Positions 10,156 through 60,495 of a stretch of DNA of 64,000 nucleotides are shown piece by piece. A program made the position numbers and the translations under genes. A model generated the notes under the pieces. That model saw nothing but the letters and a program-made list of their open reading frames with translations, ran no database searches and was not told where the DNA came from. Positions within the stretch are counted from its first letter, which is position 1. The number at the start of each line of letters is the position of its first letter. The stretch is from Vitis vinifera (lineage: Eukaryota; Streptophyta; Magnoliopsida; Vitales; Vitaceae). The DNA is taken from NCBI RefSeq assembly GCF_030704535.1, contig NC_081820.1, positions 22,705,001 through 22,769,000 on the forward strand, read 5' to 3'.

Positions 10156-13032
10156 CTAAACCTCCATTAGAAACTCCTTATCCTTCTCCAACTTCTCCAT
10201 TGCACCAGCCTCCAACGATATCTCCATGTCAATGCTTCCTACCCCGGTCTTCCCCTGATACAGATACACCATTCCGTCAAATCTGTTGTTCGATCCACTT
10301 CGCACCCTCTCCGGCTTCCCAAACCCAAAGTCCACGTCGTACACCTTGAACCTCGGCGAGCTTCCCACCGCAACGCAGTTCACTCCGGCGTCTTTGAACT
10401 GGAATATTATTGGGTTGCTCTCCCAATCATCGTTGCGTTTGTTGATGACTTTCGCGTCGTGCGTTACTATCGCTTTTTGAATCATCGCCGCGGCGAACTC
10501 CGGCGGGTTTGCGTAGAGGAGTCCGGCGGCGGTGACGGTGAAAATGGCTTGAATCAGGTTGCCGAAGTAGGACTCCGGCATGGGAGGGTCGACCCTCTTG
10601 CGGCAGTCGGCGAAGACGGTGTAGACAGTGACGTCCTCGGGTTTGAGTTGGCGAGCGCGTGTCACCGCCAGCCACACGTGCGTGGAGAGCGATTGGAAGG
10701 TGGAGAAGGGTTTGGAGCCGTCGGATGGGGTTTTGTTGAGCGTGGACTTGATCTGGTTGATTTGAGATTCCGAGAATCGGAAGATACGCTCACGGAGAAG
10801 CGGCGGTGGCCCCGCCGTGCCGTTCGGAGGGGCGGCTGCGGGGTTGAGAGGGAGGTCGAGCTTCACGCGCGTTTTGCGCGCTTTGGTGCGCTCGAGGAAC
10901 GGTGGGACGGAGACGGAGTCGGCTCCGTTGCAGATCTCGGCCCACGAGGTCATGAAGTGCCACGTGGAGGTACCGTCGAGGATCGCGTGGTTGAAAGCGC
11001 ATCCCAGTGCGAGTCCATCTCTTAGCTTGGTGAACTGCGGATCATGACAGAAAAATAATTAGTTGGCTCACGGTAACAGACTCAAAATTGGAGCCACGTG
11101 GAGGTTCAAGGGACGGTAACAGTGAGTAATTGTCATAAATGCATCTGTGGATGCTTGCATACTCGCGAAAGTAGTCTGTAGCTTCGGACTCGCTCTAGTA
11201 GACTGAAACCTGGATTCTCCGTTTTCCAATGCAAAATGAATGGCAGCTGGCACATCTAAGTGTTTGAAACTTTTATCTAGAGCAGTGCGTACGGGTATTA
11301 CCTAGAGCTGAACCTGCCTTTATGACACTACCGTGGGCGCGATACACCCAACCATGCCTCCACCTTCAAAGCCTCAAATTTTTACTTATTTATTTATTTG
11401 TTTTAAATTCATTTATTACCCATTCTATCATAATTAGAAAGATAAAAAGATAATAAAATAAAATTAAATTAAAATGGGCTTTTAGGCCCACAACAAAGGC
11501 CCAAAAAATTTCATAAATCAAAAATACCCATACCATCAATTTCTCAAAAAAGCATAAGAATAAAATTAGGCATGCCGTCCTTGTATTAATTGAAGTAGTT
11601 GAATAACCTAGGAGGCTAGGACACGAAATTTTCTTCTAGTCCATGCTTTTCAACTATTAGGAGATCATTCTTTTTGTACTAAAGAGGCATATATGACTAC
11701 TTTGAATACAACATTACGAGTATGAAGTTTGGTAAGTGACATGCCCCTACAAAGATCCCAAAAAGGGAGAGTTCATAATAAATATTAAGAATTTTAAAAT
11801 AAAAATAAAATATTATGTTCTTAAATATGCACAAAATTAAACAATTCCCAGCTTTATCTTAACTAATTTATACCATATTATATAAATATTATGCCAAAGG
11901 ATACGATCTCTCCATTCTCTGATCAAAAACGTTTTCTAAAATCATTATCAAACGTCATTTTAATCGATAATGTGATAGATAATTTCTCGACTATTAATGA
12001 TATATTTGATTTGGGAAAAAAAGAAAAAAAAATACAAGGAATAATGTAAGTTTATATTTAGGAGAAAGAAGAAGAAGAAATAAATGTCCCTCTCCACAAA
12101 TGGATCTACATTTTGATATGAGACCTTGGTTTTAAGGTGGTGAAGTACAATAAATTCATGGACAATCAGCTTGGTAGGTGGGTAAAATAATGGGGAGATG
12201 ATTACCTTCTTCTTATCATTTCTGTTTGGTTGGTGGGATTTAGGAAACATGACAAAAGAGAAAATAAGTTAGAGCTGATGCTAATTTTTTTCATTAAATT
12301 TTCTCATCATACAAAGAGAGCAGAAAATGAAATTAAATAAATGAATTTCATTTGTAATTTCCCAAAAATTTTGTATATTAATGTTTTAGTAAATAAAAAT
12401 TTAAATGACTTGAAGGCAATGAAACAGTTCTGACAATAATACATTGTCCTTCCCTAAATAAACCCAACAAATTTAAGGGCACCCCTATAATTTTAGGCCT
12501 GATTTGGACCAAAAAGAGAAGAAAAATAAAGAAAAATTCAATGCAATAGAATAGAAAATAAATAAATTGTTACCTGTAGGACCAGGAGGGGTTTATGAAG
12601 ACCCTCAAAGTTCAAGACTTGGGTGTATGGCACCATATCCTTCATCATGCTTGTGCACTCCACATCTGTTAGATCAGAGACACTGATCTGATCAGCACTT
12701 GCTTCCAACACTTCCACACCCTCCATTTCATCATCATACACAACCTTAAAGACCCCATCTTCGTCCTTCTCAAGCTTCCCAGCCAACTGATAAAACTCTT
12801 CCAAAACTACCCCTAACCCATCCTTCAATCTACCCACCATGTCCTCAAAGTCAGACCCCTTGTAGAATAGCAGCTTTTGGTTATAGTAAAAGGCCAAATA
12901 TGGGAGATCAAATGTGATCAACTGACACTCTCTTCTCCCAAGCTTCTTAGTGGGCATAATGTGGGACTTTCCATGGACAGACACCTTCACAACCTCATCT
13001 TCCTCCTTCTTCACAACTTGATCAGCTGCCAT
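10156..13032 (-). CDS. DCR: DCR-type BAHD acyltransferase
   Basis: Two exons, 13032-12574 and 11034-10156, separated by a phase-0 intron of 1,539 bp (CAG|GTAACA donor, CCGCAG|TTC acceptor); the product is 445 residues. The sequence closely follows Arabidopsis DCR (DEFECTIVE IN CUTICULAR RIDGES): [26 protein letters not shown] and [10 protein letters not shown] near the N-terminus. The BAHD catalytic motif HAILD is at residues 169-173 and the structural motif DFGFG at 388-392 (DFGFG instead of DFGWG is usual for DCR). DCR is a cytosolic acyl-CoA-dependent acyltransferase needed for cutin polyester assembly in the epidermis. The start at 13032 is preferred to an in-frame ATG at 13155 because a TATA box lies between them. 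It is the parent type of the C2-BAHD gene at 40.4-42.4 kb. Confidence 0.92.
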
Positions 13033-25273: not shown

Positions 25274-26041
25274 ATGGTAAAGCTTGAAGATATGGAGGAT
25301 GTGATGATGAAGAAGGACCGCTGGGAGAAGTTTGATGCCCTGGTAGAAGTAGCGTTCGTTGCCGGACGGCAAGAGGAGGACGAAGAACGAGAGAAGAAAA
25401 TGAGAGAAGAGATGGAGAAAGCTGTTGCATTCCTCTCCCTCGCCGCGAAGAAGCGTTGTAAGACCGTGCCGAGACCATATCAGCAGCCGAACATGGAGCC
25501 ACCTCCGGAGATGCCGGAGAGATTCAGAAGGAAGATAATGGAGATGGGGGGAGACAATGTGGCGTTTGTGATCGAGAAGATGCTGTTCGAGACGGACGTG
25601 AGCGCGGGGCACAACCGATTATCGATGCCCATGTGCCAAATCAGGCAGGACTTTGTGACGAAGGAAGAGAGGAGGAGGTTGGACTCGACGGACGCGAACA
25701 TAAATGGAGTGGAGGTGATTCTGGTAGAACCGTCCTTGGAGGACGACGAAGTGATGCTGAAGAAGTGGAAGATGAAGAGGAACTCGATTCTGTATGTGCT
25801 GATAAAGAACTGGAACTCTGTTGTGAAGAGGAATGGACTGGGTGCAGGGGATGTGGTTAGGGTTTGGTCGTTTAGGGTTGGGTCGAAGCTGGGTTTTGCC
25901 CTGGTTAGGGTTGGAGATGAGGAACATGAAGGCAAGAAAGGCAAGTCGACGGGGAAGAAGAAGAAGGATGGTGGGAGTGGAAGTGGGAGTAAAGGGAAAG
26001 AAGTTGAAGACAATGGTGGCAATGAGACTTGGATCCACTAG
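25274..26041 (+). CDS. B3-domain protein (REM / DUF313 type)
   Basis: A single exon of 255 codons. The N-terminal third is acidic and helical. The phrase PPPEMPERFRRKI at about residues 76-88 and a C-terminal B3 fold follow the plant-specific group of At2g31720/At5g24050-like B3 proteins. The B3 signature includes RLSMP (about 115-119), the VEVILVEPSL strand, a KKWKMKRNSILYVL strand and VVRVWSFRV (about 206-214). B3 domains of this type are nuclear and thought to bind DNA, but no target is known. The C-terminal tail (from about residue 226) is a Lys/Gly/Ser run suited to nuclear import. No intron is needed; the frame ends TGGATCCACTAG. A minus-strand fragment of a paralogue lies at 38.7-38.9 kb. 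Confidence 0.85.
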   Translation: MVKLEDMEDVMMKKDRWEKFDALVEVAFVAGRQEEDEEREKKMREEMEKAVAFLSLAAKKRCKTVPRPYQQPNMEPPPEMPERFRRKIMEMGGDNVAFVIEKMLFETDVSAGHNRLSMPMCQIRQDFVTKEERRRLDSTDANINGVEVILVEPSLEDDEVMLKKWKMKRNSILYVLIKNWNSVVKRNGLGAGDVVRVWSFRVGSKLGFALVRVGDEEHEGKKGKSTGKKKKDGGSGSGSKGKEVEDNGGNETWIH

Positions 26042-28129
26042 CCATGCATACGTGATGTGTTCTTAGGGTCATATTTGTAATTTGAGGGGTTTGTTTTTTT
26101 TTTTTTTTGGAAAATTATCTTACATGGTTTTTGGGTCCTGTAAGAGTTAGGTCCTGCAAGGGTTTTTGAGTCCTGTTAAGTGTTAGGTCTTGTAAGGGTT
26201 TATGAGTCATGTTTGGGTTAAGTCACCAAATTTCATTGGGAAAATTTAACTATAAGATAGTTCAAATTTTCTCAAATTTTCTCATTTGTTTGCCTTTTTC
26301 TCCCATAGCTCATAGCCATTTATGATCATAATAATGTATTAATATTGAAACCAATGTGGCACGATGGGGGCACCTCTAACTCTATTATTTTTGTAGTGAA
26401 ACATAGGTATATATGACACATCTTATAATATAAATATATTAAAAATATGATGTATTATGATATGATCAATTTTATTTTTTTATTAATTATTAATGTTGAT
26501 TTTTTATTATTAAAATGTTTTCTTGATAACTTTATTACAAAGTAAAACAATTCAATATTTACGAAATCAATATAATAATAAATATAATGACTTTGTTACT
26601 CTGTGCAACCCCTCAATTCAAACCGATGCTTGTTGTTGCACCATGAAAGATGTTGTAAAGCACGTATGGATAATTGTCTAGACACTTATGAATATTCAAA
26701 TCAAAACTGTGAAAGCCTAGAAAAATACTTGTCTAGACACTTATGGATAATTGTGATACACTCATTGACATTCAGTTAATAGCAAACCAATCATATAAGA
26801 TACTTTTTTTTTGTTTAGTTGTTATATATGTATACTTATGAGTTTTATCATAAGAATCATTGACAGTGAAAATAGACTTAATATATGATGTTAATTCATT
26901 GATATAATGTATTAATATGGGAACCGATGTGGCGTGATGGGCACCTCTAACTTTATTATGTTTGTCACATATGCATTGACCAAATTATATAGAAAACTTA
27001 ATTATAACACATATGCATTAAACTTATAATACAAATATGTTAAAATTAATTAGGACATGACCAAATTTTATTTTTTAATAATTATCGCTATTGATTTTTT
27101 TTTATTAAAATATTTTTTTATAGTTGTTGTTATTAATTAGTAGTATTATTATTATGTTTGACTTTTAAATCCTTTTCGGGACTTGTAAAAATAGATTCCT
27201 TAAGGGGACTTCTAAGCTACATATGACTTAAATTAAAGAGTAAAAAAATGTGAGTACAATTTTATTTTATTTTTTGTATGAATTAAAGAATAAAAAAGTA
27301 GTGGACAAATTTTAATAAAAAATGTGAGTATGATTTTTGTGATATTCTTTAAATTAAAGAATATATAATCTTCTGATTCAACCTCTTGAGGATTCAAATT
27401 TGGCAATTATGTACTTTTGCTTAACTTAATCAAGGGTTGACTAGGCTTGATCTTGACTCTTCCACATCAATAGTTGATTTGTACCAAAATATATACTTAT
27501 AAAAACACTAATGATTGCGCTCTAGACTCGCAACGGGGACAAATCACTATTTATATCTTAGATTAGTGTTAATATCCATTTTGAGAACTAATGCACTATT
27601 TTTTAATAAACAGACAAAGAAAAGGAGAAATGTGAGAATTTGATGCTATTTTGACATATGAAATAAAATAAAGGTACGAATATAACGCATAAAGATGTCC
27701 TAGTATTTATTGAAGTGGAGAAAGTGGAGTAAAGCAAGAACAATCACAAAAGCATATCAAATTGGTTTAAGGAGTATTAAAATTGATTTGAGGTCAAACT
27801 AATAACAAAAGAAATGAAGTAACACAAACCAATGCCCAAAATTAATATTCCCATTTCAAAACCAATTCAGGAGGACAATGAAGATGCATTAGTAGTAATT
27901 CGCATTCAAATTCTGATTTGTAAAGCTTTAAATTAGTTTTGACGATTCCACTTTAAAGAGAAATTGGTTTCACTAGAGCTTCTTGCAAGTTTCCCATTGA
28001 AATTCATATTTGAGACTTTACTTTTGTAATTATGGTTTGTTAGATATTACTTTTGTTAAAGTGGCCAATGAGGTTAAGTGACATGTACTTTTAGGGTTAG
28101 ATTATACATACTTTTCATTAATGGGTTAA
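26042..28129. other. Duplicated AT-rich DNA downstream of the B3 gene
   Basis: It contains a diverged direct repeat of about 215 bp (26325-26540 and 26900-27125; landmarks GCACCTCTAAC and TTATTATGTTTG). Parts of 26220-27700 reappear in inverse orientation at 38050-38720, together with a piece of the B3 coding sequence. A G-rich tract with a repeated GGGTTT(A/T)(T/G)GAGTC phrase follows the B3 stop (26120-26220). No gene seen. Confidence 0.6.
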
Positions 28130-29870: not shown

Positions 29871-30731
29871 TCAAAAGTCATCACCATCGTAATCTTCCAA
29901 GTCATCACCATCGATCCTATCTTCCACGTCATCAGCAATGTGATCCTCCAAAGCATCCACGCCCTCCGATATTGCCAGCCCACCCAAGACCCCTGCGACT
30001 GCGCCCACTGCCAGTCCCGTCCCCATCCCCATCCCTGACTTCTTCTGCGGCTGCTCCACCACCGTCTGTCCGTATGGCCCCTGCGCGTATGGCCCTTGTC
30101 CGTACGCCGGATCTCCGTATCTTGGCTGAGGCTGCCCATATGCCGGCTGTCTGTAGGGGTCTTGGCCGTAGGGTGGTGCATTGGAGTAGTAAGGATCAGG
30201 TGGGGGTGCGCCGTATGGAGTGGCGTAAGCCGGGGAAGCCGCGTAGCCTGCGCCTCTGGTTCCCGCTGGCGGGGGCACGCCGTAAGGGGGTGAGTAGGCA
30301 GACCCAGGCGCACGGTAGCGCGGATCTCTCACAGAGACCTTGACTTCCACCTTGCCATGAGGGCGGCCAGAGGGGCGGCGGAGCTCGAGAGTGCGGATGG
30401 CCTGGGCGCCGAAGCCGACGTCATCGACGACGTCGCGGAGGAAGAGGCGAGCGGAGCCGACGACCGGCTTGGTGTCGTCTTCGTCATCGGCTTTGAGATG
30501 GACAACGTCGAGGTAGAGTGTGGAGTCTTCGATCCGGGAGGGCACTGGAATGAGTAGAGTCTCGTTCCAGCAAGGAAAGGTGTCGCCGTCGTTGTCGACT
30601 TTGGTGGAGAGCTTGGCCGCAGGATCCACCCAAACCACGACGTATGGCTTCAGAGAGCCGTGACGCCAGTTGACGTTCTTCAGATCTTTGGCGGAGGAGA
30701 TAATCAGCTCTATCTCGTAGCGACCAGCCAT
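29871..30731 (-). CDS. SRC2: SRC2-like C2-domain protein
   Basis: A single exon of 286 codons. The N-terminal C2 domain (about residues 1-135) starts [20 protein letters not shown] and contains [22 protein letters not shown] and LYLDVVH. A Pro/Tyr/Gly-rich linker follows (about 140-240, repeats such as PYGQ and PAYG), then a glycine-zipper hydrophobic segment ([20 protein letters not shown], about 245-264) and an acidic tail. This is the layout of plant SRC2 proteins, cold- and stress-linked membrane-associated C2 proteins that traffic from the ER and affect calcium-dependent ROS signalling. One difference from the related locus is CWNE where the C2-BAHD gene has GWNE. Its promoter and C2 half are repeated at 41.9-42.6 kb. 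Confidence 0.9.
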
Positions 30732-30803
30732 GGAAGGGGCAATAAGGGAAAAATAATGGAGAAAATGGTCGGACTGTCGAATGGTTGCTAGTCGTGGGTC
30801 AAG

Positions 30804-30811
30804 TATTTATA
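30804..30811 (-). promoter_or_regulatory. TATA box of the SRC2-like gene
   Basis: TATAAATA on the minus strand about 73 bp upstream of the ATG. It is conserved at the C2-BAHD locus (42423-42430), as is the flanking sequence for about 200 bp. Confidence 0.65.
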
Positions 30812-30959
30812 GGCTTTAATGTCCGCTTGTCCTTCGAAAATCTTGTCCCTTTTACCGTTATACCCTCCTACCCATGTTTGAAAAAAAAAAAAAAAACAAA
30901 TAAGAAACAACTTCTCTGTAAGTCAAAAGACAACATTTTTCTAATTTTAAAATTAAACT

Positions 30960-31430
30960 ATTTTTGAACGTTCGGTGAGAGGGTATTTTGGTAAAAAAAT
31001 ATGACAGAGGAGCTCAACTGGGGAAGGGCATAATAGGGAAAAGACTAACTAGGGAAAGGGTTTGGGCCCCACGGATTGCTTTCTCACTAAGCATCGAGAT
31101 TGTCCTGATGCTCTGTCTTTATGCGCACTCGATGGTTGCGGAATTCTATTGGTGTAACCGGATAATGCCGGTGTCAGATGTCAATTGAGAGGAGATCGGC
31201 GTTGTCCACACGAGGAATATTCTCGCATGACAGAGAAAGGTCTCGTAACGAGATTGGTCCTACGCGGAATAGACACGGCGTCACTTGGGCCGGACCTTGT
31301 CAATTTTGTATCTTTTAGGCCCAAAAAGTGGGCCACCAAGGCAGCCCATGGGCTTGTTGCAAGCCCACTATTGCCATCTTTCATCTACTTCACCAGGAAA
31401 AGTTCTTGATTTCTCTTCCAAGGTGGAACC
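30960..31430. promoter_or_regulatory. Upstream region of the SRC2-like gene, G+C richer
   Basis: A balanced-composition stretch with several GGGCC/GGCCC motifs (31283, 31316, 31328), some of them TGGGC-type as in site II promoter elements. It has short open frames on both strands with no recognisable domain. It may be distal promoter or the remnant of a lost gene. The first part (about 30960-31035) is also present upstream of the C2-BAHD gene. Confidence 0.4.
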
Positions 31431-38049: not shown

Positions 38050-38860
38050 GCATCTTTATGCGTAATATTCATACCTTTACTTAATCTCATATGTCATAAT
38101 TGAGTCAAATTCTCACATTTTCTACTTCTTTTTTTTTTTGGGTCTTTTTATTAAAAAATAGTGCATTAGTTCTCAAGTATTTATAGCACAATCATTAGTA
38201 TCTTTACAAATATATATTTAATACAACTCAATTATTAATGCAAAAGAGTTGAGATTAAACCTAGTGGACCTTGATTAAGTCAAATAAGAGTACATAATTG
38301 CCATATTTGAATCCTTAAGAGGTCGAATCAAAAGATTATACATTATTTAATTTAATAATAATAATAACTATAAAAAAATATTTTAAGAATAAAAAAACCA
38401 ATATTGATAATTATTAAAAAAGTAAATTTTGGTCAAGTTATAAGTTCAATGCATATGTGTCGTGCTAGAGTTTTATGACAAACATAACTCGAGGCACCGA
38501 CCATGCCATATTTATTTCTATATTAATACATTATTATCAATGAATTAAAATTTAGGTGTGTTCTTATTGTCAATGATTCTTACAATAAAGCCGACAAGTC
38601 TCATATACAAAAATAAGAGGCGTCTTCTATGGTTGGGTTGTATGGGGTATGGGAGAAAAAGGCAAACCAATGAGAAAATTTGAATATCTTATAGTTCTAG
38701 TTTCCCAATGAAAATTGGCGACCTAACCTTCCTCCCTTCCTCCGTCGAGTCCAGCGACCTCTTCTCTTCCTCCGCCACAAAGTCCTGCCTGATTTGGCAG
38801 ATGGGCATCGATAATCGGTTGTGCGCTGGAAATCAGCACCATGGATCAGCAAAGCTTGGC
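38050..38860 (-). pseudogene. Inverted partial copy of the B3 gene and its 3' flank
   Basis: On the minus strand, 38835-38745 matches the B3 coding region around ACAACCGATTATCGATGCCC and the following AATCAGGCAGGACTTTGTG (B3 gene 25612-25690). It then jumps to the 3' flank: 38720-38630 matches 26217-26311 and 38620-38050 matches parts of 26860-27700. Only about 45 codons of the B3 domain remain, with no start and no end. It is a dead fragment produced by an inverted duplication with internal deletions. Confidence 0.8.
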
Positions 38861-40410
38861 AGACTGTAAACTCAAAAATCCTTTACATATATAGCTGAGG
38901 CATGTTTGATCAACTGGCCCAAGGGTGTCTTATTTCTCAGGTTCCCTTTACCAATACAGGTCAAAATCAAGAAGGATTAGCCCACCTTGACATTATAATG
39001 TTGCATGGAAAAAGTTTCCCGAGAAACCCAAGAAACTTTGAAAGTTCTAGAATAACGGGTTGAAGAATCTTATAATTCACCATATTTTCTTTTTCTTTTT
39101 TGGTATTTTTAATTATATAAAAAAAGAATAATAAATATCATAAAAATAAATATTAATTATTAAATTAAGAAAATCAAATATTATTAATATTTTATTTTTA
39201 TTAAGGAAACAAATATTATTTTTTTATTTATGATTTATGAAAATATTGATTCTACCATCATCTACACTAAAGTGCTTAACCCACGACAATCTCCTCATTG
39301 GCGTGCTCAAAGTTCCTGCAAATGTTTCTTTACCGAAGAAATGTGAAGGAAAATAAAATAAAATAAAATAAAATCACATAAAAAATATCATGAAATCCAT
39401 AATATACTATATTTTATAAATATAAAAATAAAATATGGTTCTTATATATTTCCAAGTCTATTTCAATCAAAGTGTTATTTTAAACAAAAGTTCAAAGGAC
39501 TAGCATTGAAAGACAAAATATGAAAAACAACCATCGCTTCTATTATGCCTACTTTTAATAGAAAAAATGTAAATGTTTATGACTTATTAGGCTCCAAGCC
39601 AATAATTCATTAGTCAAGATCTCATTTCGATACATCATTTAAGTGTAATCTCTTACTAAATAATTTGTGAGGGTCATTTAATTCAACTTTTGTTGAAGCA
39701 AGATAGAAGCCGATATTGAATATGCTATGAGACATAAGGGATAAGAACAACGAATGCAAGGAGGACTTGTAAGAATAAGTGGGAGATGTTGTTGTGCCCT
39801 AATATTTATAAGATTTTGGAGAATGATAAGATTAAGGCAAATAGTTGAATACCTATTTGGGTTTGTGATTTAAAGTTTGAAATCAATTGCATATGTAGTG
39901 ATAGATATGTTATTGATATTGTCAATCAAACATGCAAATGCATAAATGAGACTTAACCGGTATCCCTTGTTCATATGCAATTTTAACTATATTTGTAGAA
40001 GAGAAATAATAAGTTTTAAGTTATCTTTAAAAATTACTAGACTCGTTAATGAATCAAACACATTAACTCTTACTTAATGTTTATTTGTTTACTTAAAAAA
40101 ATTGTAAAAGTATGATATATATATATATAAAATAAATTAACCTAGCCATTTAAAATAAATTTTGATTTAAGACTTTTTCGTGTTTTTGAGTTTTATGACT
40201 TTTTAGTTTAATTAAATCAATTTTTGAGTTTAAATATTTTTTAAAAAATAATAAATTTATTTGTTTAATAAAAAATATTAAAGAAGTTAAAGGAAATTCA
40301 GAAAAGCAAATCATATTTGAAAATTTTCAATACTTGTACAGTGCGGAGAGAAAGTGAGAGAACAGTATATTCTGTTCAATTTTATGAAAAATAAAACACC
40401 AGTCCAACAC
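38861..40410. other. Intergenic DNA downstream of the C2-BAHD gene
   Basis: AT-rich, no gene. A phrase AAGTGGGAGATGTTGTTGTG at about 39777 resembles the 3' ends of some retroelements, but no element could be delimited. The 3'UTR of the C2-BAHD gene should lie in the last 150 bp. Confidence 0.45.
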
Positions 40411-42350
40411 CTAAACCTCCATTAGAAACTCCTTATCCTTCTCCAACCTTTCCATTGTACCAGCCTCCAACGTTATCTCAACGTCAATGCTTCCTCCCCC
40501 GGTCTTCCCCTGATACAAATACACCATTCCGTCAAATTTGTTGTTCGATCCACTTCTCACCCTCTCCGGCTTCCCAAACCCAAAGTCCACGTCGTACACC
40601 TTGAACCTCGGCGAGCTTCCCACCGTAACGCAGTTCACTCCGGCGTCTTTGAACTGGAATATTATTGGGTTGCTCTCCCACTTATCGTTGCGTTCGTTGA
40701 TGGCTTTCGCGTCGTTCGTTACGATCGCTTTTTGAATCATTGCCGCCGCGAACTCCGGCGGGTTTGCGTAGAGGAGTCCGGCTGCGGTGACGGTGAAGAT
40801 GGCTTGAATCAGGTTGCCGAAGTAGGACTCCGGCATGGGAGGGTCGACCCTCTTGCGGCAGTTGGCGAAGACGGTGTAGACGGTGACGTCCTCGGGTTTG
40901 AGTTGGCGAGCGCGTGTCACCGCGAGCCACACGTGCGTGGAGAGCGATTGGAAGGAGGAGAAGGGTCTGGAGCCGTCAGATGGGGTTTTGTTGAGCGTTG
41001 ACTTGACCCGGTTGATTTGAGATTCCGAGAATCGGAAGATGCGCTCGCGGAGAAGCGGCGGCGGCTCCGACGTGCCGCTTGGATTGGCGGCTGTGGGGTC
41101 GAGGGGGAGGTCGAACTTCACGCGCGTTTTGCGCGCTTTGGTGCGGTCGAGGAACGGTGGGACGGAGATGGAGTCGGCTCCACTGCAGATTTCGGCCCAC
41201 GAGCTCATGAAGTGCCACGTGGAGGTACCGTCGAGGACAGCGTGGTTGAACGCGCATCCCATTGCGAGGCCATCTCTTAGCTTGGTGAACTGCGGATCAT
41301 GACAGAAAAACAGTTGAAGCAGTTGAATAACCTGGGACAACAAACTTTGTTCTAGTCCATCTTTTCAACTATTGGGAAATCATTCCTTTTGTACCAAAGT
41401 CATATGACCACTTTTAATAGAAAATAAATAAATAAATAAATTGTTACCTGTAGGACGAGGAGGGGTTTATGAAGACCCTCAAAGTTCAAGACTTGGGTGT
41501 GTGGCAGCATATCTTTCATCATGCTTGTGCTCTCCACATCCATTAGATCAGAGACACTGACATGATCAGCACTTGCTTCCAACACTTCTACACCCTCCAT
41601 TTCATCATCATACACGACCTTAAAGACCCCATCTTCATCCTTCTCTAGCTTCCCAGCCAACTGATAAAACTCTTCCAAAACTACCCCTAACCCATCCTTC
41701 AATTTACCCACCATGTCCTCAAAGTCACACCCCTTGTAGAATAACAGTTTTTGGTTATAGTAAAAGGCCAAATATGGGAGATCAAATGTGACCAATTGAC
41801 ACTCTCTTCTTCCTAGCTTCTTAGTGGGCATGATGTGGGATTTTCCATGGACAGCCACCTTCACAACCTCAGCTTCCTCCTTCTTCACAACTTGATCTAC
41901 GCATGGAGTGGCGTAGGCGGACTCAGGCGCACGGTAGCGCGGATCTCTCACGGAGACCTTAACTTCCACCTTTCCCTGAGGGTGGCCGGAGGGGCGGTGG
42001 AGCTCGAGAGTGCGGATGGCCTGGGCTCCGAAGCCGACTTCGTCGACCACGTGGGGGAGGAAGAGGCGAGCGGAGCCGACGACCGGCTTGGTGTCGTCTT
42101 CGTCATCGGCTTTGAAATGGACGACGTCGAGGTAGAGTGTGGAGTCTTCGATCCGGGAGGGGACCGGAATGAGTAGAGTCTCGTTCCAGCCAGGAGAGGT
42201 GTCGCCTTCGTTGTCGACTTTGGTGGAGAGCTTGGCCGCAGGATCCACCCAAACTACGACGTATGGCTTCAGAGAGCCGTGACGCCTGTTCACATTCTTC
42301 AGGTCTTTGGCGGAGGAGATAATCAGCTCTAGCTCGTAGCGACTAGCCAT
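40411..42350 (-). CDS. C2-BAHD fusion: SRC2-type C2 domain joined to a DCR-type acyltransferase
   Basis: Exon 1 is 42350-41448 and exon 2 is 41289-40411; the intron is 158 bp, phase 0, with the same splice sites as DCR. The product is 593 residues. Residues 1-151 are an SRC2-type C2 domain plus a short linker (starts [31 protein letters not shown] retained). From residue 152 (DQVVKKEE) it is a full DCR-type BAHD protein lacking only the first three DCR residues. HAVLD is at 317-321 and DFGFG at 536-540, so both BAHD motifs are present. The join lies at about 41893-41905, and a 69-bp in-frame stretch of the SRC2 linker is missing. The promoter is SRC2-like. I infer an acyltransferase whose location or timing is altered by the C2 domain; activity is unproven. 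No in-frame stops or broken splice sites are seen. Confidence 0.85.
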
Positions 42351-42422
42351 GGAAGGGACAACAAGGGAAAAATAGAGGAGAAAATGGTCGGACTGTCGAA
42401 TGGTTGCTTGTCGTGGGTCAAG

Positions 42423-42430
42423 TATTTATA
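42423..42430 (-). promoter_or_regulatory. TATA box of the C2-BAHD gene (SRC2-derived promoter)
   Basis: TATAAATA on the minus strand, 73 bp upstream of the ATG and at the same distance as in the SRC2-like gene. Sequence similarity to the SRC2 promoter continues to about 42610. Confidence 0.65.
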
Positions 42431-42614
42431 GCCTTTTTGTTCTTCGAAAAACTTGCCCCTTTTACCGTTATACCCTCCTACGCATGAAAAAAAAAAAACA
42501 AATTGGAAACAACTTCTTATGTAAGTCGAAAACAACATTTTTATTATTTTAACATTAAACTCTTTTTGAAAGTCTAGTGAGACGGTATTTTGGTAAAAAG
42601 ATATGGCGAGGAGC

Positions 42615-43640
42615 CCAACTGGGGAAAGGCACGCAATCGAGCGGAGTTCTATCGAATGGCCTTTGACCCAAACAAAAAGTCAACTTTAGGCCTGCGTTGA
42701 AACTATCGTGCAAACTAGCCTTCTGCCTTTTTCTGAAAAAAAAAAACACACACAAAATTATTAAAACTTCCTTCTCTTCCACCCGCACGTCTATGACCAT
42801 TGACCCATTGCCGGCGACACCCCTTTCTCCCTTCCCTTCTTTCCTTCTTCCCTATTTCTCTCTTTCTCTCTCCATCCTATCCACCATATCCATTTTTCCC
42901 TTCCTCCAACTCCTGCTGATACTCACTGCCGGCCAGCGACGTCATGCCGTCGGTGCCGCTCATGGCTCGACCTTGCTGTCGATGTCCAAGAAATGAAGCT
43001 TAGCGCATATTTGGGACATGGTTTTTTAGAACAATTTTCTATTATTCAAAATAAATAAAAAAACAGAGAAAATATGTTTCTAGATGTTTCTTAGTTGTGG
43101 AAAGTGACAAGTAGTTGAAAATATTTTATATCTCCATAGACAAGTAGATCATCCATTTGGGCTGTTGGAGGTTTTGATGGGCGGCTTTTGTCGAGCCATG
43201 GTGCAGTGACTGTGATATGGTGGCTGGTTGGTGGTGTCAAAATGAGTCATGCTGCTGCAGGGGTTCACAGGGGCTTCGGGTTGATGCGTAAGTGTCGTGG
43301 AGAAGGGTGGGTGGTGGGAGGAGGAGGTTGTATTGATAGCAAGGGTGTGTCGGGGACCTTAAGCATGTTTGCCAAGATAAAAATTATTGTCTTATTTCTC
43401 ATTGTCCTGGGCCCTGATTAGTGGGTTTGAAACTTTGAATGGAAAGCCATTGGCGGTAAATAATCACCACAATGCGACATTTATCCGAATACTGAAAAAA
43501 GAAAATATTAAAATATTTCAATTTTATACATAGAACAATTAACAAGCACGTCACATTAATTTCATAATAATTGTAAAATTAGTGTTCTAGTTATTTGAAA
43601 TTGTTTTACAAAACAAGAAATAAAGAATATTGATTTAGAG
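42615..43640. other. Intergenic DNA upstream of the C2-BAHD gene
   Basis: A C/T-rich stretch (42760-42990) and a G-rich stretch (43150-43420) contain short open frames without recognisable domains. I see no supported gene. Confidence 0.45.
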
Positions 43641-49100: not shown

Positions 49101-50704
49101 GAATGTGAGACTGGAGAATGCAAGCCTTGTGTTTCTTGGTAGGAGGTTGATTTTTTCATAAAAGAAGCCAAGAAAAGGAAGGTTTCAATTTGTTTTATCC
49201 CCGTTTGAAAAGGGTCGAATTGAAAAATTATGAAGAACGCAAGCGACCCATCAGTTGCTTATGGTTGTTTTGATTACAGTGGAATCTTAATCCCTTGTCC
49301 AAGTTTAGATTATACCTGAAAAGCTAAGTAATGAGTGAAAGAGTTGACTTATTTTGCTGATATTGAATGATTTTCACACAATTCAATCAACTTCAAGAAA
49401 TAGTTTTCTGTTTGAATGTTGTGTACTGAGCTTCCATTTTAATTCTATCTTGTTGAAGAATTACAGTGGAATCTTAATCCCTTGTCCAAGTTTAGATTAT
49501 ACCTGAAAAGCTAAGTAATGAGTGAAAGAGTTGACTTATTTTGCTGATATTGAATGATTTTCACACAATTCAATCAACTTCAAGAAATAGTTTTCTGTTT
49601 GAATGTTGTGTACTGAGCTTCCATTTTAATTCTATCTTGTTGAAGAAGTGCATGATTTATTACTTCATATTACAGTGGCCTTTAATGCATGTTTAGTAAG
49701 ATCAAGTTCAACACCTACACTGTACTGTTGGATAAATATGTTATATTTTGTTTTCTGGATGCTTGATGGTCTTTCTAATATCTCATCTAATCAGAGGAGC
49801 TAGAAATGTAAATGAAGTTTACCACTTGGGTAATAATAAAAACTTGGACTAGTCTGTACTTCATAGAATCCAGTGTTTCCATTTTTACATAACATGCACT
49901 TGCCAGTTTATAGGATTCATCTTGATAATTCTAAGAAGGATGATTTTCAGGTATCAACTACCCTTTCGCCCCCCTGAAAGTTGTGTCTGCATGGGTATAG
50001 GTAGATCTGTCTGTTAGTGTGTGTTTTAATTGGATTGATTGTTCTTGAGACTGCATGAAGTGAAAACATCTTCATTTTTCATTATATTCTGATTTCCTGA
50101 AACTTATCCCTTGTTTATCATAACCTCGATTGCCAAACAAGCAAAACAACCCCTTGGGTGTGTCTGGCTGCTTGATGGACCAACTTCAGCAGTGATGGTT
50201 GGATCAGCATCTCCTCTCTCCGGGGACATAGTGATCATATGCATCCTTCGTGGGGTTTAAAAGTATTCTGAGATTCTTCATTGTTTATTCTCTTGGCAGG
50301 CCAGGATTTTGGCACTAAATGCATCGTACTTCCTGAAAGCTGGAGGTCATTTTGTTATATCAATCAAGGTTTGTTTTCGAATGGCTTTCTCCAATTGAAA
50401 GAACTAGAAATTTAAATGAACTCTGGCCCAATCTGTATGTTGCACCGAAGAAATTTCTGTATATCCAAGAGTAGTGAACAATGAATGGAACTTCACTACA
50501 TTGATAAAATTCATTTAAACTTTTCAGGCAAACTGTATAGATTCGACAGTCCCAGCAGAAGCAGTATTTGCCCAGGAAGTGAAGAAGCTGCAAGCGGATA
50601 TGTTCAAGCCTTCTGAGCAGGTCACCCTTGAACCCTTTGAGCGAGACCATGCTTGTGTGGTTGGTGGGTACAGAATGCCAAAGAAACAAAAGCCCACAGC
50701 TTAG
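46102..50704 (+). CDS. FIB2: Fibrillarin, rRNA 2'-O-methyltransferase
   Basis: Seven exons: 46102-46123, 46443-46774, 47347-47442, 47555-47632, 47722-47898, 50300-50368 and 50528-50704, all with GT/AG borders; 316 residues. Residues 1-80 form the Gly/Arg-rich GAR domain ([20 protein letters not shown]). The methyltransferase domain follows, with the SAM-binding motif [14 protein letters not shown], the [13 protein letters not shown] acidic-end motif, [12 protein letters not shown] and GGHFVISIK. Fibrillarin is the catalytic subunit of box C/D snoRNPs in the nucleolus and Cajal bodies, and also methylates a histone H2A glutamine. Exon 1 is only 22 bp, as in other plant fibrillarin genes. Intron 5 (2.4 kb) hosts two snoRNA genes, as in Arabidopsis FIB1 and FIB2, which host U60. 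Confidence 0.96.
48394..48466 (+). ncRNA. Box C/D snoRNA, U60-like, copy 1 (intron 5 of fibrillarin)
   Basis: Terminal stem ATGCA/TGCAT encloses box C ATGACGA (one change from consensus), the guide ACTCGGATTCCCCTT, a C'-like TGATGCA and box D CTGA at 48457-48460. The guide is complementary over about 13 nt to AAGGGGAATCCGA, which I recall as a conserved plant 25S rRNA segment. The position in fibrillarin intron 5 matches the known U60 host arrangement in Arabidopsis. Confidence 0.75.
48928..48996 (+). ncRNA. Box C/D snoRNA, U60-like, copy 2 (intron 5 of fibrillarin)
   Basis: Box C TGATGAA (48934-48940, perfect), the same guide ACTCGGATTCCCCTTCAAGA (48943-48962), C'-like TGATGCA and box D CTGA (48990-48993) with a short terminal GCA/TGC stem. 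The guide and following nucleotides are identical to copy 1; the 3' part differs at several positions. The better box C makes this the stronger of the two copies. Confidence 0.8.
49274..49647 (+). repeat. Perfect tandem duplication of 187 bp in fibrillarin intron 5
   Basis: Units 49274-49460 and 49461-49647 appear identical, each starting TTACAGTGGAATCTTAATCC and ending TTGTTGAAGAA. A further ATTACAGTGG seed follows at 49669. Identity means it is recent, or an assembly artefact. Confidence 0.9.
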
Positions 50705-51885: not shown

Positions 51886-53233
51886 ATTCACAGTCAAAGA
51901 TTTAAAACACTAATTAATAGCATTTTTTAGTACTCTGCCTTCATTCAATTGAAAAATAGGGGATTGGGATCAGCGTCTGCAAAGCAGTTCCACATATGAC
52001 AACCACATGGCATTCACACGATGTTTGGTTCTAACATTATAGAGATTGTAACTATCCGCTCTTAATCACTTTCATAGTTAAATCAATATATCAATCTTCT
52101 AAAGAAGTCTTCGTAACTTTAAAATACATCTATACAATTACAAGAGATTATTATAAAATAATTACTAAGTTAATCTCGACCCATATGCATGTCGATACTG
52201 GATACATGGTGGATCTCTCTCCTGGATTTTACAACTCGCAAATTAGAGAAGGCCGCCTTCCAATTGTATAAGATAAAAGTTTTAGTCCCAAAAATTTGAT
52301 CCACGTACTGATTGGTGAGTCCATATATGGACATAAGCTAAAGACAAAGAGAAAAGGTTTGGGCTCAAAATAATGTCCCTAATATTAATATACGTTTTAT
52401 GCAAATTGTTTTTATATGCATTATCAAATGATATTACCTAATAATTTAATATGATACTAGCGTCTTGTTTTTTCAAAAAAAATTAAAGTTAAATGAGTGA
52501 GATCCATATTTCTTGAGAAAAAAGTTTTTAAGACTTACGAGACTTAAGAGTATATTTGGTAGTAATTCTTGAAAGCATTTATAATATTTTTAATACTTAA
52601 AAGATAAAATTTTTAAGTATTAGAAAAATTAAAAATATTTTCTAAAATTACTACAAAACAGACTCTTAAAATGCATTTGAGAGTGATTTTAGAAAGTATT
52701 TTTAGTATTTCTTAACACTTGAATGATAAAAAATTTTAAGTATTAGAAATATTAAAAGTGTTTCCTAAAATCACTATCAAATCAACTCAAAAATGTATTT
52801 GACAATAATTTTAAGAAATTTGTTTTTGGGCATCAATTTATAGCTACTATGAGTACCCTTCACTCAATTCTCTCACCACATTTTGGGGAGATTGGTAGTT
52901 GGGAAGGCTTTCTTATCTCATTCATTGCTTTGTTCGAAAGGGTTTGTTTTGGTTGAAAAAGTTCAGTTCTTCTAGGAGGCTCTTCATCCTTCGTAGTTTG
53001 TTAAAGATGACACATGTCATATCTTAGTGAACATGTTTATTAATAGAAAAGATTCCTTATTGTTACAAAATGATGCCCATGCTATTAGATCATAAGGATG
53101 TTCGAAACCTTGAAATAGAAAATAAGCCTCAAGTTGTAGACCTCGACAATGATCTTACTAGACCTCAAAATCACATGAGTAGACACGGGTTTTTTTCTTT
53201 CATCCATACAAGGAAACCAAAAGAGAGGTAACA
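51886..53233. other. Intergenic DNA with palindromic units and a MATE 3' flank
   Basis: About two and a half units of the 43.6-kb palindromic repeat family occupy 52550-52830. From about 52860 the sequence (CTCAATTCTCTCACCACATT) belongs to the duplicated 3' flank shared by the three MATE copies, recurring at about 58720 and, in part, 61553. Confidence 0.65.
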
Positions 53234-56159
53234 TCATACATCATCGGCTTCAATCCGTTGTCCTCCCCACTTCTGCATCCTCTCTGTTGTTTGTTCTACC
53301 TGCAATCAATTCAGTTTCAATATCCATCAGCAAGACTCTTACTTAATCTAGTTCTGAGCCCTTTTTTTCAATCTTTCTGTTTACAGAACTGGATTGTGAA
53401 CCATGGGATGCAAATTGCAAAAGCCATAATGCAGACTCAAAGGTCAAGCTGCTCACCTCCCTGTTCCAGTTGGTTCTGTATACTATGAACAATAGTACCA
53501 ATGTCTGCAAAGCAGTTCCGCATATCATGCCCCCCCAAAGTCCCTGCACTCACAAAACCCATTACAATGATTTAATTCCGAAACCAGATTTGTTAACGAT
53601 TCTTGGTAGGAGAAGTTCCATGGAGAGAAAAATTCACCTGCACCCCCAGTTTTGCTTTGTAACCTAGAAGGTAGCCTAGAGGGATTCCAAGAATGTAGTA
53701 GCAACCCAAGTTGATGTAAGCCACCATGGCTTGCCATCCGCCTCCGACAGCAACGCCTATAACAATGAAGGAATTATGAAGGTGAGGAGGCGAACAAGAC
53801 ACACCATGAGAGCTATGCTATGACACAAGTGGTATATATGGAGAAGCGAAAAGCCGATACCTGAAAAGACAGGCTGCAGACTGTTAAGAAGCATGGTGAC
53901 GCCCAGAAGATAAGCTAGGTGAGAAACAGCCTCTTGCATTTCCTTGTTGGTAGTGAAAATGATGGCAATGTAGTCTCTAGCTAACAACACCACCACCATG
54001 CAGAAAATCCCAATAAGGAGAGACTGAGAGACTGCGACAAAGACAGAGTACTTGGCTGCTCGTGGGTGTCCATATCCGAGCTCATTGGAGACCCGAATGC
54101 TGAAAATTAAGCAATAAAAGACATCCAAAATATCCTCAAGATGTACAGATGAACAAACAACATCCCTTAAAGCACAAAAATTATTGAAGAGAGCAGCGTA
54201 TTTGTTTTACCTCACAGCAGCATTCATCCCCATGAACATCACGACCTCCAACCCACCAAAAGTCATGCTAAAACATATCATATGAACAAATAAATCAAAA
54301 GCTGAAAATAAATTACAAGGACCAAAAAGCATATGCTCATTAGTCATTATTTCAGAAAAGGAATGGTGATCTCACCAAATAGAAAGGGACCCAACTGCGA
54401 TAACTGCATTTTGAAGGTGGCCGGTGAGAAGGATTATGATCATAAAATACCAGATCTCTAGGCAAAGCATCACAGCGGAGGCAAGTGAAAGCCGAACAAA
54501 AGCCCAAATCTCCCTGAAAGCTGACCATGTTAATCCTGTCCATCCTTCTTTGCACCAACTGATAGCATAGACTACTTGAGCCACGGCGGTCACCCAACTC
54601 GAGATGTCATAAGCTATGGCTGCACCAGTCGTGCCCCAACCGAACACAAAAATGAAGACCGCAAGCATTCCAATGTCCAGGATTAGAGCCACAAAACAGA
54701 TAGTTGCTTGCACATTCACCTTACTTTGGGCTTGAAGGAACTTCTGGGTGGGGAAGATGATGGCAAGCGAGAACAATTGAGGAATGGTTTCGAGAGTGAA
54801 TTGTCCAGCAAGATCAGCTATCTCGTCTTCTTGCCCAAGGGCCTTTAGGATTGGGGTGGCAAAGATGTATATTGGCAAGAGGATGATACAGCTTACTAAT
54901 AGAATTATCCATGATCTCTGCAAGTAAACCCCAAGCAACTGGACTTGTCCAGCACCATAAGCTTGTCCACATAAGGTCTCCAGCGCACTCCCCATACCAA
55001 GCTACAAATTTGAAAGTAGATTCAGAATCAAAATCTGTTTGTTTCATCAGAAAATGAAATCAAGGAAAATGACACTGTTGATTCAAAACAATGCAAGATT
55101 TTTCATTCCCAACTTGTTATTCCAAGTTCCCGTTTCTTCTTTAACTGCTCCAGAAGCTTTCCGGAATTTCTCATCAACAAAGCACAAATTTTTCTTATAA
55201 TGCAAACATGATATTAATGAGTTTCTAGAATCTTTCCCCCTTTAAGTTTAAAATAAAAAATTGAACTCAGGTATTCTTAAATGGCTCTGTTTGCTTGTTG
55301 GGAAAATGAAGGAAAAGAAAAATAAGAACATTTTGAAATTTAATTATTTAAGAGCCTAATCCCCTCTCCTCTCCAAAGAAAAACAGAACTCCAATATCAA
55401 CCTATAAACCCGTTAATATCAACCGTCCTGAATTCCAAAATTTTCAGGTTCAGCACTTAATTGTGATCGAAAAATTGGGTTTGATCTTTTCACGATCAAG
55501 AAACAGAAACAATATAATAATAATAATAATGATGATGACAAAAACATAAGAATCGAGTCATCAACCAAAATAATTTACTCTTATGCATGTTTCACTTTCT
55601 CCACATTCTTAGATGGTATACAAAGTAAAAAATTTTTAAAATCAAATGCATTTGAAGAAGTAACCCAAGAGCCTGGCTGGCTCAAATGTCAAAGCTAGAA
55701 AATCAAAGTCTTTTTTTTTTTTCTTTTCCATCGTTTCTCGGCAACCAAACAAAGGCACAGATACGAAAAGCTACCACAAACTTCATAAATAACGGTGACA
55801 ACCCAGAAAGGAAACACCCGTGACAGTATGGAAGTGTAAAGAGAGAAAAGGAATCCGACCATGAAGCCAAAAGAGAAGGTTCCAATGACAGAGACGGAAA
55901 TGGAGACAGCAGAGAGCTCAAGGTTTCCGATATGACCAACAAACACAGTGGTCACCAAGTTGGTTCCGAACTGACACAGTATTTGGAAAGCCAAAGGCCC
56001 AGCAACTCTCCACACCTTCACTGTCTCTCTCCACAACATTGACCTCACTTCCCTCCAGCTCGTCAAAGGCGGGTAGTCCCCGCCTTCGCCGCCGTATCCC
56101 CTTTCGGCGCCGCTCTTGAGCAGCGGCGTCTCCATTGGCGCCGAAGAAGACTGCCGCAT
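53234..56159 (-). CDS. DTX35: MATE transporter, DETOXIFICATION 35-like
   Basis: Seven exons on the minus strand: 56159-55860, 55001-54376, 54267-54211, 54099-53861, 53756-53638, 53543-53457 and 53299-53234; 497 residues. It follows Arabidopsis DTX35/FFT closely: VELSAVSIS-type and [64 protein letters not shown]-type, [33 protein letters not shown] and a final [10 protein letters not shown]. It should have twelve membrane segments and work as a proton-coupled antiporter; DTX35 acts at the tonoplast and affects flavonoid content. The donor of exon 1 (ATG|GTCGGA) is weak but has GT. A TATA-like box at 56174-56183 sits so near the first ATG that the second one (56135, METPLL, 489 residues) may be the true start. 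It is the complete member of a three-copy tandem array. Confidence 0.92.
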
Positions 56160-56760
56160 GCTCTTAGAGTCTCGCTATAAATAGAGGGCCACATGGATGT
56201 CGCGTGAGCCCCCATTCATGACCATCAAAATTAAAAAAAATATTTTAATATAATATAGTACGCCTTTTTTTCAAGTGGTGACTAAATATGGGCATCATAT
56301 AAATTTTATAAATTAATAAAAAAAAGAATTAATTAATATTGATTTATGATTAAATGGGAAATCATATTTTTAAAATCTATTAAAATTATAATTTAAAATA
56401 TGATTTTAAGTAATTTTTTAAAATTAAAATAAAATATGTGAGAAAAATATATTATTTTTTAGCATTGAAAAATGTTGAAATTTTTAAACGGGTTGGGGCC
56501 AAGCGACGGTCAAGTATGAAAAATTTCTACACCTGCCCCCGCTGCTGCCCCCACCCATTTAATTTAATTTATTTTTTTTACGAAGACTAGAATAAATATA
56601 AACAACAGGATGTAGGTGGAATGGGCAACCCACCTAATCGTCATCCTTAACCATAATTGATCGGACTAATCAAAAATCATTTTAATGTATATTTTATATA
56701 TTATATAAATATTTTTAAGTAAATAAACATAAAAATAAGAAGAGCCGTTTGGAATTATTT
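56160..56760. promoter_or_regulatory. Promoter region of the first MATE gene
   Basis: A CTATTTATAG box on the minus strand at 56174-56183, then AT-rich DNA with a G+C-richer insert at 56495-56560. No other motif stands out. Confidence 0.4.
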
Positions 56761-58380
56761 TTTAAAAATGTTTCTAACCCAAAAAAATATTTAAAAACTT
56801 TTTTTAAGTTGGAAAATAGGTGTTTAATAATATTTAGAAAAACACTTTTGATAATTTAGATTCTGTTTGAATGAAAATGTTTTTATTGAAAGTGTTTTTT
56901 TTACTGTACTTCTCTAAAAAATGTTTTTATGAAAATATGAAAAAATGGTTCTAATAGTATTTTTGATAATATATTGTATAAATAAAAAAAATATTTTTAA
57001 TGATAATAAATTACTAAAAAGGAACTTTACAAAAATAAAATATTTTAATAAATCAAATACTTTTATTACAAAATATATATAAACATTTATATTATTAAAA
57101 AAACTAAAAAAAAATATATTTTTATGAAAAGGAAGTGAAAGAGGAAGAGGAGAGTGAGAAGGAAACAGAAAGTGAAAGAGAAATTGGTGATAACGGGAAA
57201 GGGTATTTTAAGAATATATGAAAAAATTCGAAGTGTTTTTTTAAAGAAACACCTCCTAAGTGCTTATCTAAAAAAATACTTTCAAGTGTTTTCCTAAATT
57301 TTAAAAGTATTTTTAAGAATATTGTCAAACACCTATTTTATACCTTAAAAACGTTTGTAAGTGTTTTTAAGGTTAGAAAACACTTTCAAAAAACAACAGG
57401 CTTCTAGTGTTTCTTTAAAAAAACACTTCAAAAATTTTCATATATTCCTAAAATACTCTTTCATGCTACCTTCTATTTCTCTTTCACTCTTCATTACCTT
57501 GTTACTCTTCTCTCTTCCTCTTTCACTTTCCTTTAGTAAAAATAATTTTTTTAGTTTTTTAATAATATAAATGTTTATATATTTTTTGATAATAAACTTT
57601 TTTATTTATTATAATATTTTCTTTTTGTAATAAGTGTTGTTTTCAATCATAAAAAGCAATATTTATCAAAAACACTATTAGAATCATTTTTCTAGATTAT
57701 CATAAAAGCGTTTTCATAAAGATATTTTAGAAGAAAACACTTCAGTAAAAATACTTTCACTATAAGTAGTGGTAAACGAGCTCAAACTTTATTAAAATTT
57801 TGATGACACTGCTTTTAGTGGAAGTGTTGTTATTAAAAGTGTTTTTTTTTACAACACTTCTATGAAAAACGTTTTTATGAGAATATGGAAAAGTGATTCT
57901 AATAATGTTTTTTTATGATATATCATGTAAGTATAAAAATACTTTTAATAATAATAATAAATTACTAAAAGAGACATTTATTACAAAAAAAAATTATAAT
58001 AAACCAAAAACTTTTATTACAAAAAAAATATAAATATTTATTATATTGTTAAAAAAATAAATAAATAATATTTTTATAAAAGGGGAGTGAAAAATGAAGA
58101 GGAAAGTGAGAAGGAAGCCGAGAGTGAAAAAGAAACCAAAGATAACGAGGAAGAGTATTTTAAGAATACATAAAAAATTTTGAATTGTTTTTTCTTAAAG
58201 AAACACCTTCTAAGTGCTTTTCAAAAAAACACTTCAAGTATTTTTTAAAAAATTTAAAAATTTTTAAAAGTGTTTTTTAAAATATTGTCAAACACCTCCT
58301 TTTTACCTTAAAAACATTTTAAAGTATTTTTAGGGTTAGAAACACTTTTAAAAAGTACTGTCAAATAAGTTAATATGATA
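56760..58380. repeat. Three copies of a 0.5-kb repeat, two forming a large palindrome
   Basis: Copy 1 (about 56865-57355, plus) and copy 2 (about 57365-57775, minus) face each other around a centre near 57360. Copy 3 (about 57810-58370) repeats copy 1. Each contains AAGTGTTTTTTT, a TTATTACAAAA-type block, a purine-rich stretch (GGAAGTGAAAGAGGAAGAGG) and a GTCAAACACCT-type end. Short serine-rich frames come from the antisense of the purine-rich stretch and are not genes. Confidence 0.8.
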
Positions 58381-59035
58381 CTAATATTTTGCTTTTTCAA
58401 AAAATTTAAAGTTATACGAGTGAGAACCATATTTTTTGAGGGAAAAGTTTTTCGCACTCACAAGACATAGCGTAGTTACAATAATATTTCCACTTTAAAG
58501 TGTTTATAGTGAAAATGTTTTCTTTGAAAGTGTTTACAGGATAATCATGTATAGTTGTTGAAAACCTTCTAAATGACTTTTCGCGTCAATTCTTTGAAAA
58601 ATATAGAGTTATAAAATCCGCATCGAATCGAGAAATCAACATAAAAGACAGCCCCACCGACCGCAGAGAAAGAAGACAAGGACAACCCTCATGCTTCTAT
58701 GGCTAAATATCAGGACCCTTTCCTCAATTCTCTCACCACATTTTGGGGTAGATTGGTAGCTAGGAAGGCCAACAAGAATTCAATATATACGTTGGTAGCT
58801 GGGAAGGCTTATTTATCTCATTCATTGAATGGCTGAGGAGGGATTACGATTTTATTTATTTTTTAATCATTCTCATAAAAAAAAAATATATTTCATTACT
58901 GTTAGAAATTGATGCCCATGCTATCAGATCATAAGGATGTTTGAAACCTTGGAATAAAAAATAAGACTCAAATAGTAGCGTGTAGACACGGTCCTTTTCT
59001 TTCATCCATACAAGGAAACCAAAAGAGAAGTAACA
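58381..59035. other. 3' flank of the second MATE copy
   Basis: From about 58700 it matches 52840-53230 (CCTCAATTCTCTCACCACATTTTGGGG), with a small internal duplication of the GATTGGTAGCT phrase. No gene. Confidence 0.55.
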
Positions 59036-60441
59036 TCATACATCATCGTCTTCAATCCGCTGTCCTCCCCACTTCTGCATCCTCTCTGTTGTTTGCTCTA
59101 CCTGCAATCAATTCAGTTTCAATATCCATCAGCAACACTCTTACTTAATCTAGTTCTGAGCCCTTTTTTTTCAGTCTTTCTGTTTACAGAACTGGATTGT
59201 GAACCATGGGATGCAAATTGCAAAAGCCATAATGCAGGCTCAAAGGTCAAGCTGTTCACCTCCCTGTTCCAGTTGGTTCGGTATACTATGAACAATAGTA
59301 TCAATGTCTGCGAAGCAGTTCCACATATCATGCCCCCCCAAAGTCCCTGCACTCACAAAACCCGCTACAATGATTTAATTCCGAAACCGATTTGTCAACA
59401 ATTCTTGGGAGGAGAAGTTCCATGGAGAGAAAAATTCACCTGCACCCCAAAGCATCACAGCCGATGCAAGTGAAAGCCGAACAAAAGCCCAAATCTCCCT
59501 GAAATCCGACCACGTTAATCCTGTCCATCCTTCTTTGCACCAACCGATTGCATAGACCACTTGAGCCACGGCGATCACCCAATTGGAGATGTCATAAGCT
59601 ATGGCTGCACCAGTCGTGCCCCAACCGAACACAAAAATGAAGACCGCAAGCAAGCCAATGTCCAGGATTAGAGCCACAAAACAGATAGTTGCTTGCACAT
59701 TCACCTTACTTTGGGCTTGAAGGAACTTCTGGGTGGGGAAGATGATGGCAAGCGAGAACAATTGAGGAATGGTTTCGATAGTGAATTGTCCAGCAAGATC
59801 AGCTATCTCGTCTTCTTGCCCAAGGACCTTTAGGGTTGGGGTGGCAAAGATGTATATTGGCAAGAGGATGATACAGGTTACTAATAGAATTATCCATGAT
59901 CTCTGCAAGTAAACCCCAAGCAACTGGACTTGTCCAGCACCATAAGCTTGTCCACATAAGGTCTCCAGCGCACTCCCCATACCAAGCTACAAATTTGAAA
60001 GTAGATTCAGAATCAAAATCTGTTTGTTTCATCAGAAAATGAAATCAAGGAAAATGACAGTATTGATTCAAAACAATGCAAGATTTTTCATTCCCAACTC
60101 GTTATTCCAAGTTCCCGTTTCTTCTTTAACTGCTCCAGAAGCTTTCTGGAATTTCTCATCAACAAAGCACAAATTTTTCTTATAATGCAAACATGATATT
60201 AATGAGTTTCTAGAATCTTTCCCCTTTTAAGTTTAAAATAAAAAATTGAACTCAGGTATTCTTAATGGCTCTGTTTGCTTGTTCGGAAAATGAAGGAAAA
60301 GAAAAATAAGAACATTTTGAAATTTAATTAACTAAGAAACCCATTAATATCAACCGTCCTGAATTCCAAAATTTTCAGGTTCAGCACTTAATTGTGATCG
60401 AAAAATTGGGTTTGATCTTTTCACGATCAAGAAACAGAAAC

Positions 60442-60495
<54 letters not shown>

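Follow-up and report, generated by a model that had tools for sequence, protein, structure and literature searches.

Does the open reading frame in which an SRC2-type C2 domain runs in frame into a nearly complete DCR-type BAHD acyltransferase represent a new gene, and, if so, how was it made and what would its product do? The frame lies in a 64,000-nucleotide stretch of Vitis vinifera DNA, the whole of which was analysed and is referred to here as the window. From its sequence the fusion is predicted to be a real, intact and apparently constrained gene. The explanation that we consider best, and for which belief and doubt weigh about equally, is a selected fusion derived from DNA duplication, with an SRC2-type promoter and a membrane-held, DCR-like acyltransferase as its product, probably working free of calcium.

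The fusion gene occupies the minus strand from the ATG at 42350 to the end of the stop codon at 40411, and encodes 593 residues in two exons without an internal stop. Pfam places a C2 domain (PF00168) at residues 7-97 (47.0 bits; profile positions 3-88 of 104) and an approximately full-length Transferase domain of the BAHD family (PF02458) at residues 164-589 (248.8 bits; profile positions 2-433 of 434); both lie above the curated cut-offs of 22 and 22.7, respectively. The corresponding scores of the parents are 42.1 bits for C2 and 244.9 bits for Transferase. The HXXXD catalytic motif is present as HAVLD (residues 317-321). The DFGWG-type motif has the form DFGFG (residues 536-540), a variant on record (PMC10585174) that the DCR-like parent also carries. 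NCBIfam assigned no family to the second exon of the fusion or to the SRC2-like gene. Gene model and Pfam thus agree with the original prediction of an in-frame C2–BAHD fusion of two neighbours that keeps both motifs and has no stop. Its description as one open exon holds for the junction, located within exon 1; the complete gene is made of two.

Table 1. Positions of the fusion gene, its two source genes and associated features in the window.
Feature	Position	Strand	Description
Fusion exon 1	41448..42350	-	Residues 1-301: C2 half, join, start of BAHD half
Fusion intron	41290..41447	-	158 bp, GT-AG (GTAACA...CCGCAG)
Fusion exon 2	40411..41289	-	Remaining BAHD half, HAVLD, DFGFG, stop codon
Junction	41898..41915	-	41915-41903, exact SRC2 13-mer; 41902-41898, five filler or altered bases; DCR codon 4 from 41897
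Upstream region common with SRC2-like gene	42351..42631	-	Counterpart 31030-30732
Broken inverted copy of 25609-27697	38051..38824	-	Downstream of fusion gene; original lies between the two source genes, part of B3-like gene
SRC2-like source gene	29871..30731	-	286 aa, one exon; C2, P/Y/G-rich linker, hydrophobic tail
DCR-like BAHD source gene	10156..13032	-	445 aa; exons 13032-12574 and 11034-10156; intron 1539 bp

Genes of both parental types had been predicted in the window, and both are found there (Table 1). In a comparison of the window with itself, the DCR-like gene matches the fusion in two coding segments, 10124-11055 against 40378-41310 (93.7% DNA identity) and 12545-13023 against 41416-41897 (94.0%), and the SRC2-like gene matches in one, 30294-31030 against 41913-42631 (89.8%). 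On the DCR side the homology extends 33 bp beyond the fusion stop. A tblastn scan of the window at an E-value of 1e-3 with five proteins (the fusion, the DCR-like, SRC2-like and B3-like proteins, and one neighbour) turned up no additional copies of the two source genes. Among genome_contigs, the DCR-like protein gave 60 pattern-matched stretches and no relatives by tblastn; among viral_contigs, the fusion protein gave one stretch and no relatives.

Several other repeats are present in the window. Between the upstream side of the SRC2-like gene and the fusion, the segment 31499-35763 holds several local direct duplications, 90-97% identical. A transporter gene region, which from its translations and without a Pfam result we take to be MATE-type, forms a tandem triplet at 53053-63890 in which one copy is partial (pieces 87-97% identical). 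A 188-bp direct tandem repeat at 49273-49647 is 100% identical, and is either very recent or an effect of the assembly. At 6565-7839, units of about 317 bp that are roughly 78-79% identical form a tandem array.

The join itself can be read base by base. Across it the fusion has the codons TAC GCC ACT CCA TGC GTA GAT CAA. The 13-mer TACGCCACTCCAT (41915-41903) is an exact match to positions 30227-30215 of the SRC2-like gene, where it sits 69 nt past the TAC at which the main alignment ends; since the last SRC2-derived bases therefore come from a repeat 69 nt downstream, the SRC2 part has undergone an in-frame deletion of 23 codons just before the join, between two similar P/Y-rich repeats. From GAT CAA onward the fusion matches the DCR-like gene from codon 4 (13023 downwards), so that the DCR-like part is joined just beyond the DCR start codon. 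The filler or altered bases, at 41902-41898, lie within the interval 41893-41905 in which the join had been predicted. CCAT is present in both sources at the join, but a join through CCAT only would break the frame; minor alterations there, whether filler or the net loss of two bases, would have restored it, and the sequence of these steps is our reading of the bases.

The fusion intron lies at the same position as that of the DCR-like parent and shares both of its ends and its core (parent 11590-11708 against 41314-41419 of the fusion, 79.8% identical). The retention of the intron indicates that the fusion was copied at the level of DNA, and an origin as a retrocopy was rejected on these grounds. 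The parental intron (11035-12573) is 1539 bp long compared with 158 bp in the fusion, gains or losses of sequence having occurred in both flanks of the core. In the broken inverted copy downstream of the fusion gene, an 84-bp piece is 91.7% identical to its original and the other pieces about 66-88%; the B3-like label of this piece and of its source is our own reading of the translation. This copy suggests duplication of a larger block, followed by rearrangement. The fusion would have arisen when two genes, one for a DCR-type BAHD enzyme and one for an SRC2-type C2 protein, were duplicated at the level of DNA and deletions followed, SRC2 residues 1-146 plus the residues ATP of the downstream repeat thereby coming into frame with DCR from its residue 4; we infer this order of events.

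Both halves remain close to their parents. The C2 half differs from the SRC2-like gene by 29 nucleotides and 14 amino acids over 146 codons, and the BAHD half from the DCR-like gene by 79 nucleotides and 40 amino acids over 442 codons; neither contains an indel, a count that covers the 588 aligned codons, with the 23-codon deletion just outside. By the NG86 method the C2 half has dN 0.044, dS 0.152 and dN/dS 0.29 (95% interval 0.13-0.59, 500 bootstraps), and the BAHD half dN 0.043, dS 0.134 and dN/dS 0.32 (0.21-0.52, 500 bootstraps), each of these pairwise ratios including the branch of the parent as well as that of the fusion. The comparison of both halves with their parents, which had been proposed as a check on the fusion, thus gives intervals below 1 for each. 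Other estimates for the C2 and BAHD halves are 0.23 and 0.34 (YN00) and 0.22 and 0.36 (maximum likelihood). Third positions are in excess of equal thirds in both (18 of 29 differences in the C2 half, p 0.004; 37 of 79 in the BAHD half, p 0.010). The similar dS of the halves fits a single event. A plain old pseudogene was rejected, since the frame is free of stops and indels and the pairwise comparison shows constraint. Judged by this constraint, the fusion appears to be under purifying selection; the constraint may predate the join if the join is recent.

That last point leads to the strongest of the alternatives, in which the duplicates were long functional and separate until a late deletion joined them, leaving an inherited open frame whose product has no selected role. 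We regard such a relic as possible, though on the unlikely side. The age of the join is inseparable from that of the duplication, and neutral simulations (4000 runs per setting, indel-to-substitution ratios of 0.05-0.2) set the outcome by branch length: the frame stays free of stops in 4.0-4.5% of runs at a branch of 0.065, 18% at 0.035, 37% at 0.02 and 60-62% at 0.01. Runs with neither a stop nor an indel make up 0-0.025%, 0-1%, 0.03-7% and 3-26%, respectively, figures that overstate loss, as in-frame indels are also scored as breaks. With a post-join divergence of only 0.01, therefore, most neutral runs would remain stop-free, and 3-26% also indel-free, depending on the indel rate. An in-frame join, on the other hand, calls for the in-frame 69-nt deletion together with the small junction changes, and a join made through CCAT only would have run into a stop seven codons past CCA. 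Neither the SRC2 tail nor the DCR start region has left a remnant that tblastn (E 1e-3) finds elsewhere in the window, which argues weakly in the same direction.

The amino-acid changes of the BAHD half were also polarised with outgroups. Against a presumed sequence of Arabidopsis DCR, the closest outgroup, 12 of the 40 differences are fusion-like, 13 are like the stand-alone gene and 15 like neither, which assigns 13 changes to the fusion side and 12 to the stand-alone side and leaves 15 unassigned. Against relatives in the PDB the counts (fusion-like : DCR-like : neither) are 7:1:32 for BOS, 6:2:32 for AmAT7-3 and 5:2:33 for EPS1; pooled by site by hand, with one split site excluded, they come to 10 against 3 (p = 0.09). 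Among these 40 differences, which concern the BAHD half only, there is no sign of faster evolution of the fusion copy.

Upstream of the fusion ATG, the homology to the SRC2-like gene extends for 281 bp. Within 150 columns of the ATG the two differ at 10 of 136 aligned bases, with 14 gap columns, and over all 281 aligned bases there are 36 substitutions and three indel events, a divergence similar to the synonymous one; TATAAATA is found at −80 in both genes. The fusion gene would accordingly be driven by an SRC2-type promoter. The start codon of DCR is not retained as an in-frame start, so that the enzyme is made together with the C2 half, unless translation starts internally. These observations also suit a second alternative, in which only the BAHD half matters and the C2 half amounts to a new promoter and start codon for a soluble DCR regulated in the SRC2 manner: both the 5' leader and the region upstream do match the SRC2-like gene, and with the DCR start lost it is the C2 half that provides the start codon. 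We think this unlikely. The C2 half is constrained as well, the upper bound of its pairwise dN/dS of 0.29 being 0.59, and its Pfam score is no lower than that of the parent. That the assembly has artificially joined two loci is very improbable: the join is known from one assembly, but the halves differ by 6-10% in DNA from their parents, so that the same reads have not simply been placed twice, and filler or altered bases are present at the join.

What the fusion retains of the SRC2-like parent is the C2 part; the hydrophobic tail is gone, as is almost the whole of the P/Y/G-rich linker, and the SRC2-like architecture of C2 domain, linker and hydrophobic tail is therefore not found in the fusion. 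Membrane localisation has been tied to the C2 domain in grape and pepper SRC2 proteins (PMC12684713, PMC12989361). Grape VvSrc2 without its C2 domain is described as mostly confined to the nucleus and to small clumps, whereas deletion of the transmembrane segment leaves the localisation unchanged; as reported there, the C2 domain is necessary for membrane localisation, with no indication that it is sufficient alone, and VvSrc2 is also nuclear through a separate signal (PMC12684713). Most maize SRC2-like proteins are reported at the plasma membrane, and Arabidopsis SRC2 in both cytosol and plasma membrane (PMC12989361). VvSrc2 has 291 residues and the SRC2-like gene of the window 286, and the two may be paralogues.

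It had been proposed that the C2 part tethers the enzyme to a membrane or makes it calcium-responsive. By analogy with VvSrc2, the C2 half may indeed act as a tether. Calcium responsiveness is not supported by the sequence: at the presumed canonical calcium-binding aspartate positions, the fusion has N21, K28, H78 and K80, D86 alone being kept, and the SRC2-like parent carries the same residues. With four of the five aspartates absent, calcium control through the canonical ligands was set aside, though not finally, the alignments to solved C2 domains being weak (E 0.037 for 9bkw, 0.064 for Syt7 2d8k). C2 domains in general are described as typically calcium-dependent in the paper on the maize proteins (PMC12989361).

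Returning to the preferred reading, the product would be a DCR-like, acyl-CoA-dependent acyltransferase, held by its N-terminal C2 domain at the plasma membrane or ER, near lipid acceptors and probably without calcium. We infer transcription of the fusion, enzymatic activity, membrane targeting and a cutin-type or other lipid substrate. In its fullest form, that of a selected new membrane-anchored BAHD enzyme that is driven by a stress-type SRC2 promoter, carries out DCR-type lipid or cutin acylation at the membrane, has become fixed in the grape lineage and does not occur in other plants, we put it forward only tentatively. If expressed and active, the gene would be a natural experiment in what tethering a soluble acyltransferase to a membrane does to cuticle or lipid chemistry, and the presence of both source genes in the same window makes a direct comparison possible. 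As an example of gene birth in a plant it would also be well resolved, with parents, promoter and junction in one stretch of DNA.

DCR-type enzymes help to build the waxy surface of the plant, and DCR is reportedly a soluble diacylglycerol acyltransferase, going by the title of Rani et al. 2010. Over its 442 residues the BAHD half has 287 identities to Arabidopsis DCR (again by the presumed sequence), 136 to BOS, 126 to AmAT7-3 and 130 to EPS1. DCR and EPS1 have been placed in one orthogroup (PMC11449225). Among the matches listed from the open-access literature, by titles and openings of abstracts, no described C2–BAHD protein was found; the BAHD family is known, and the process of formation is of a known kind. 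A survey of BAHD genes from 2011 lists in its supplement Vitis gene models of unusual length, long or short (PMC3123328), and the fusion gene may already be in that list.

Compared with DCR-type BAHD enzymes (Arabidopsis AT5G23940), the fusion shares the HXXXD motif, DFGFG and a near full-length Transferase domain, and differs in having a C2 domain in place of the first three residues of the parent and an SRC2-type upstream region. With SRC2-like C2 proteins such as grape VvSrc2, pepper CaSRC2-1 and maize ZmSRC2L it has the N-terminal C2 domain in common, but an enzyme replaces most of the linker and the hydrophobic C-terminal tail. Its manner of origin has its closest counterpart in rice: Zhou et al. 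(2022) report 310 fusion genes in four Oryza species, with duplication followed by fusion as the main pattern and purifying selection common among them (PMC9199173). Like their Type I fusion genes, the grape fusion has both parents present and would have arisen by duplication and then fusion; its parents lie in the same region, however, a minority pattern in Oryza, reported for 2 of 35 Type I genes (PMC9199173).
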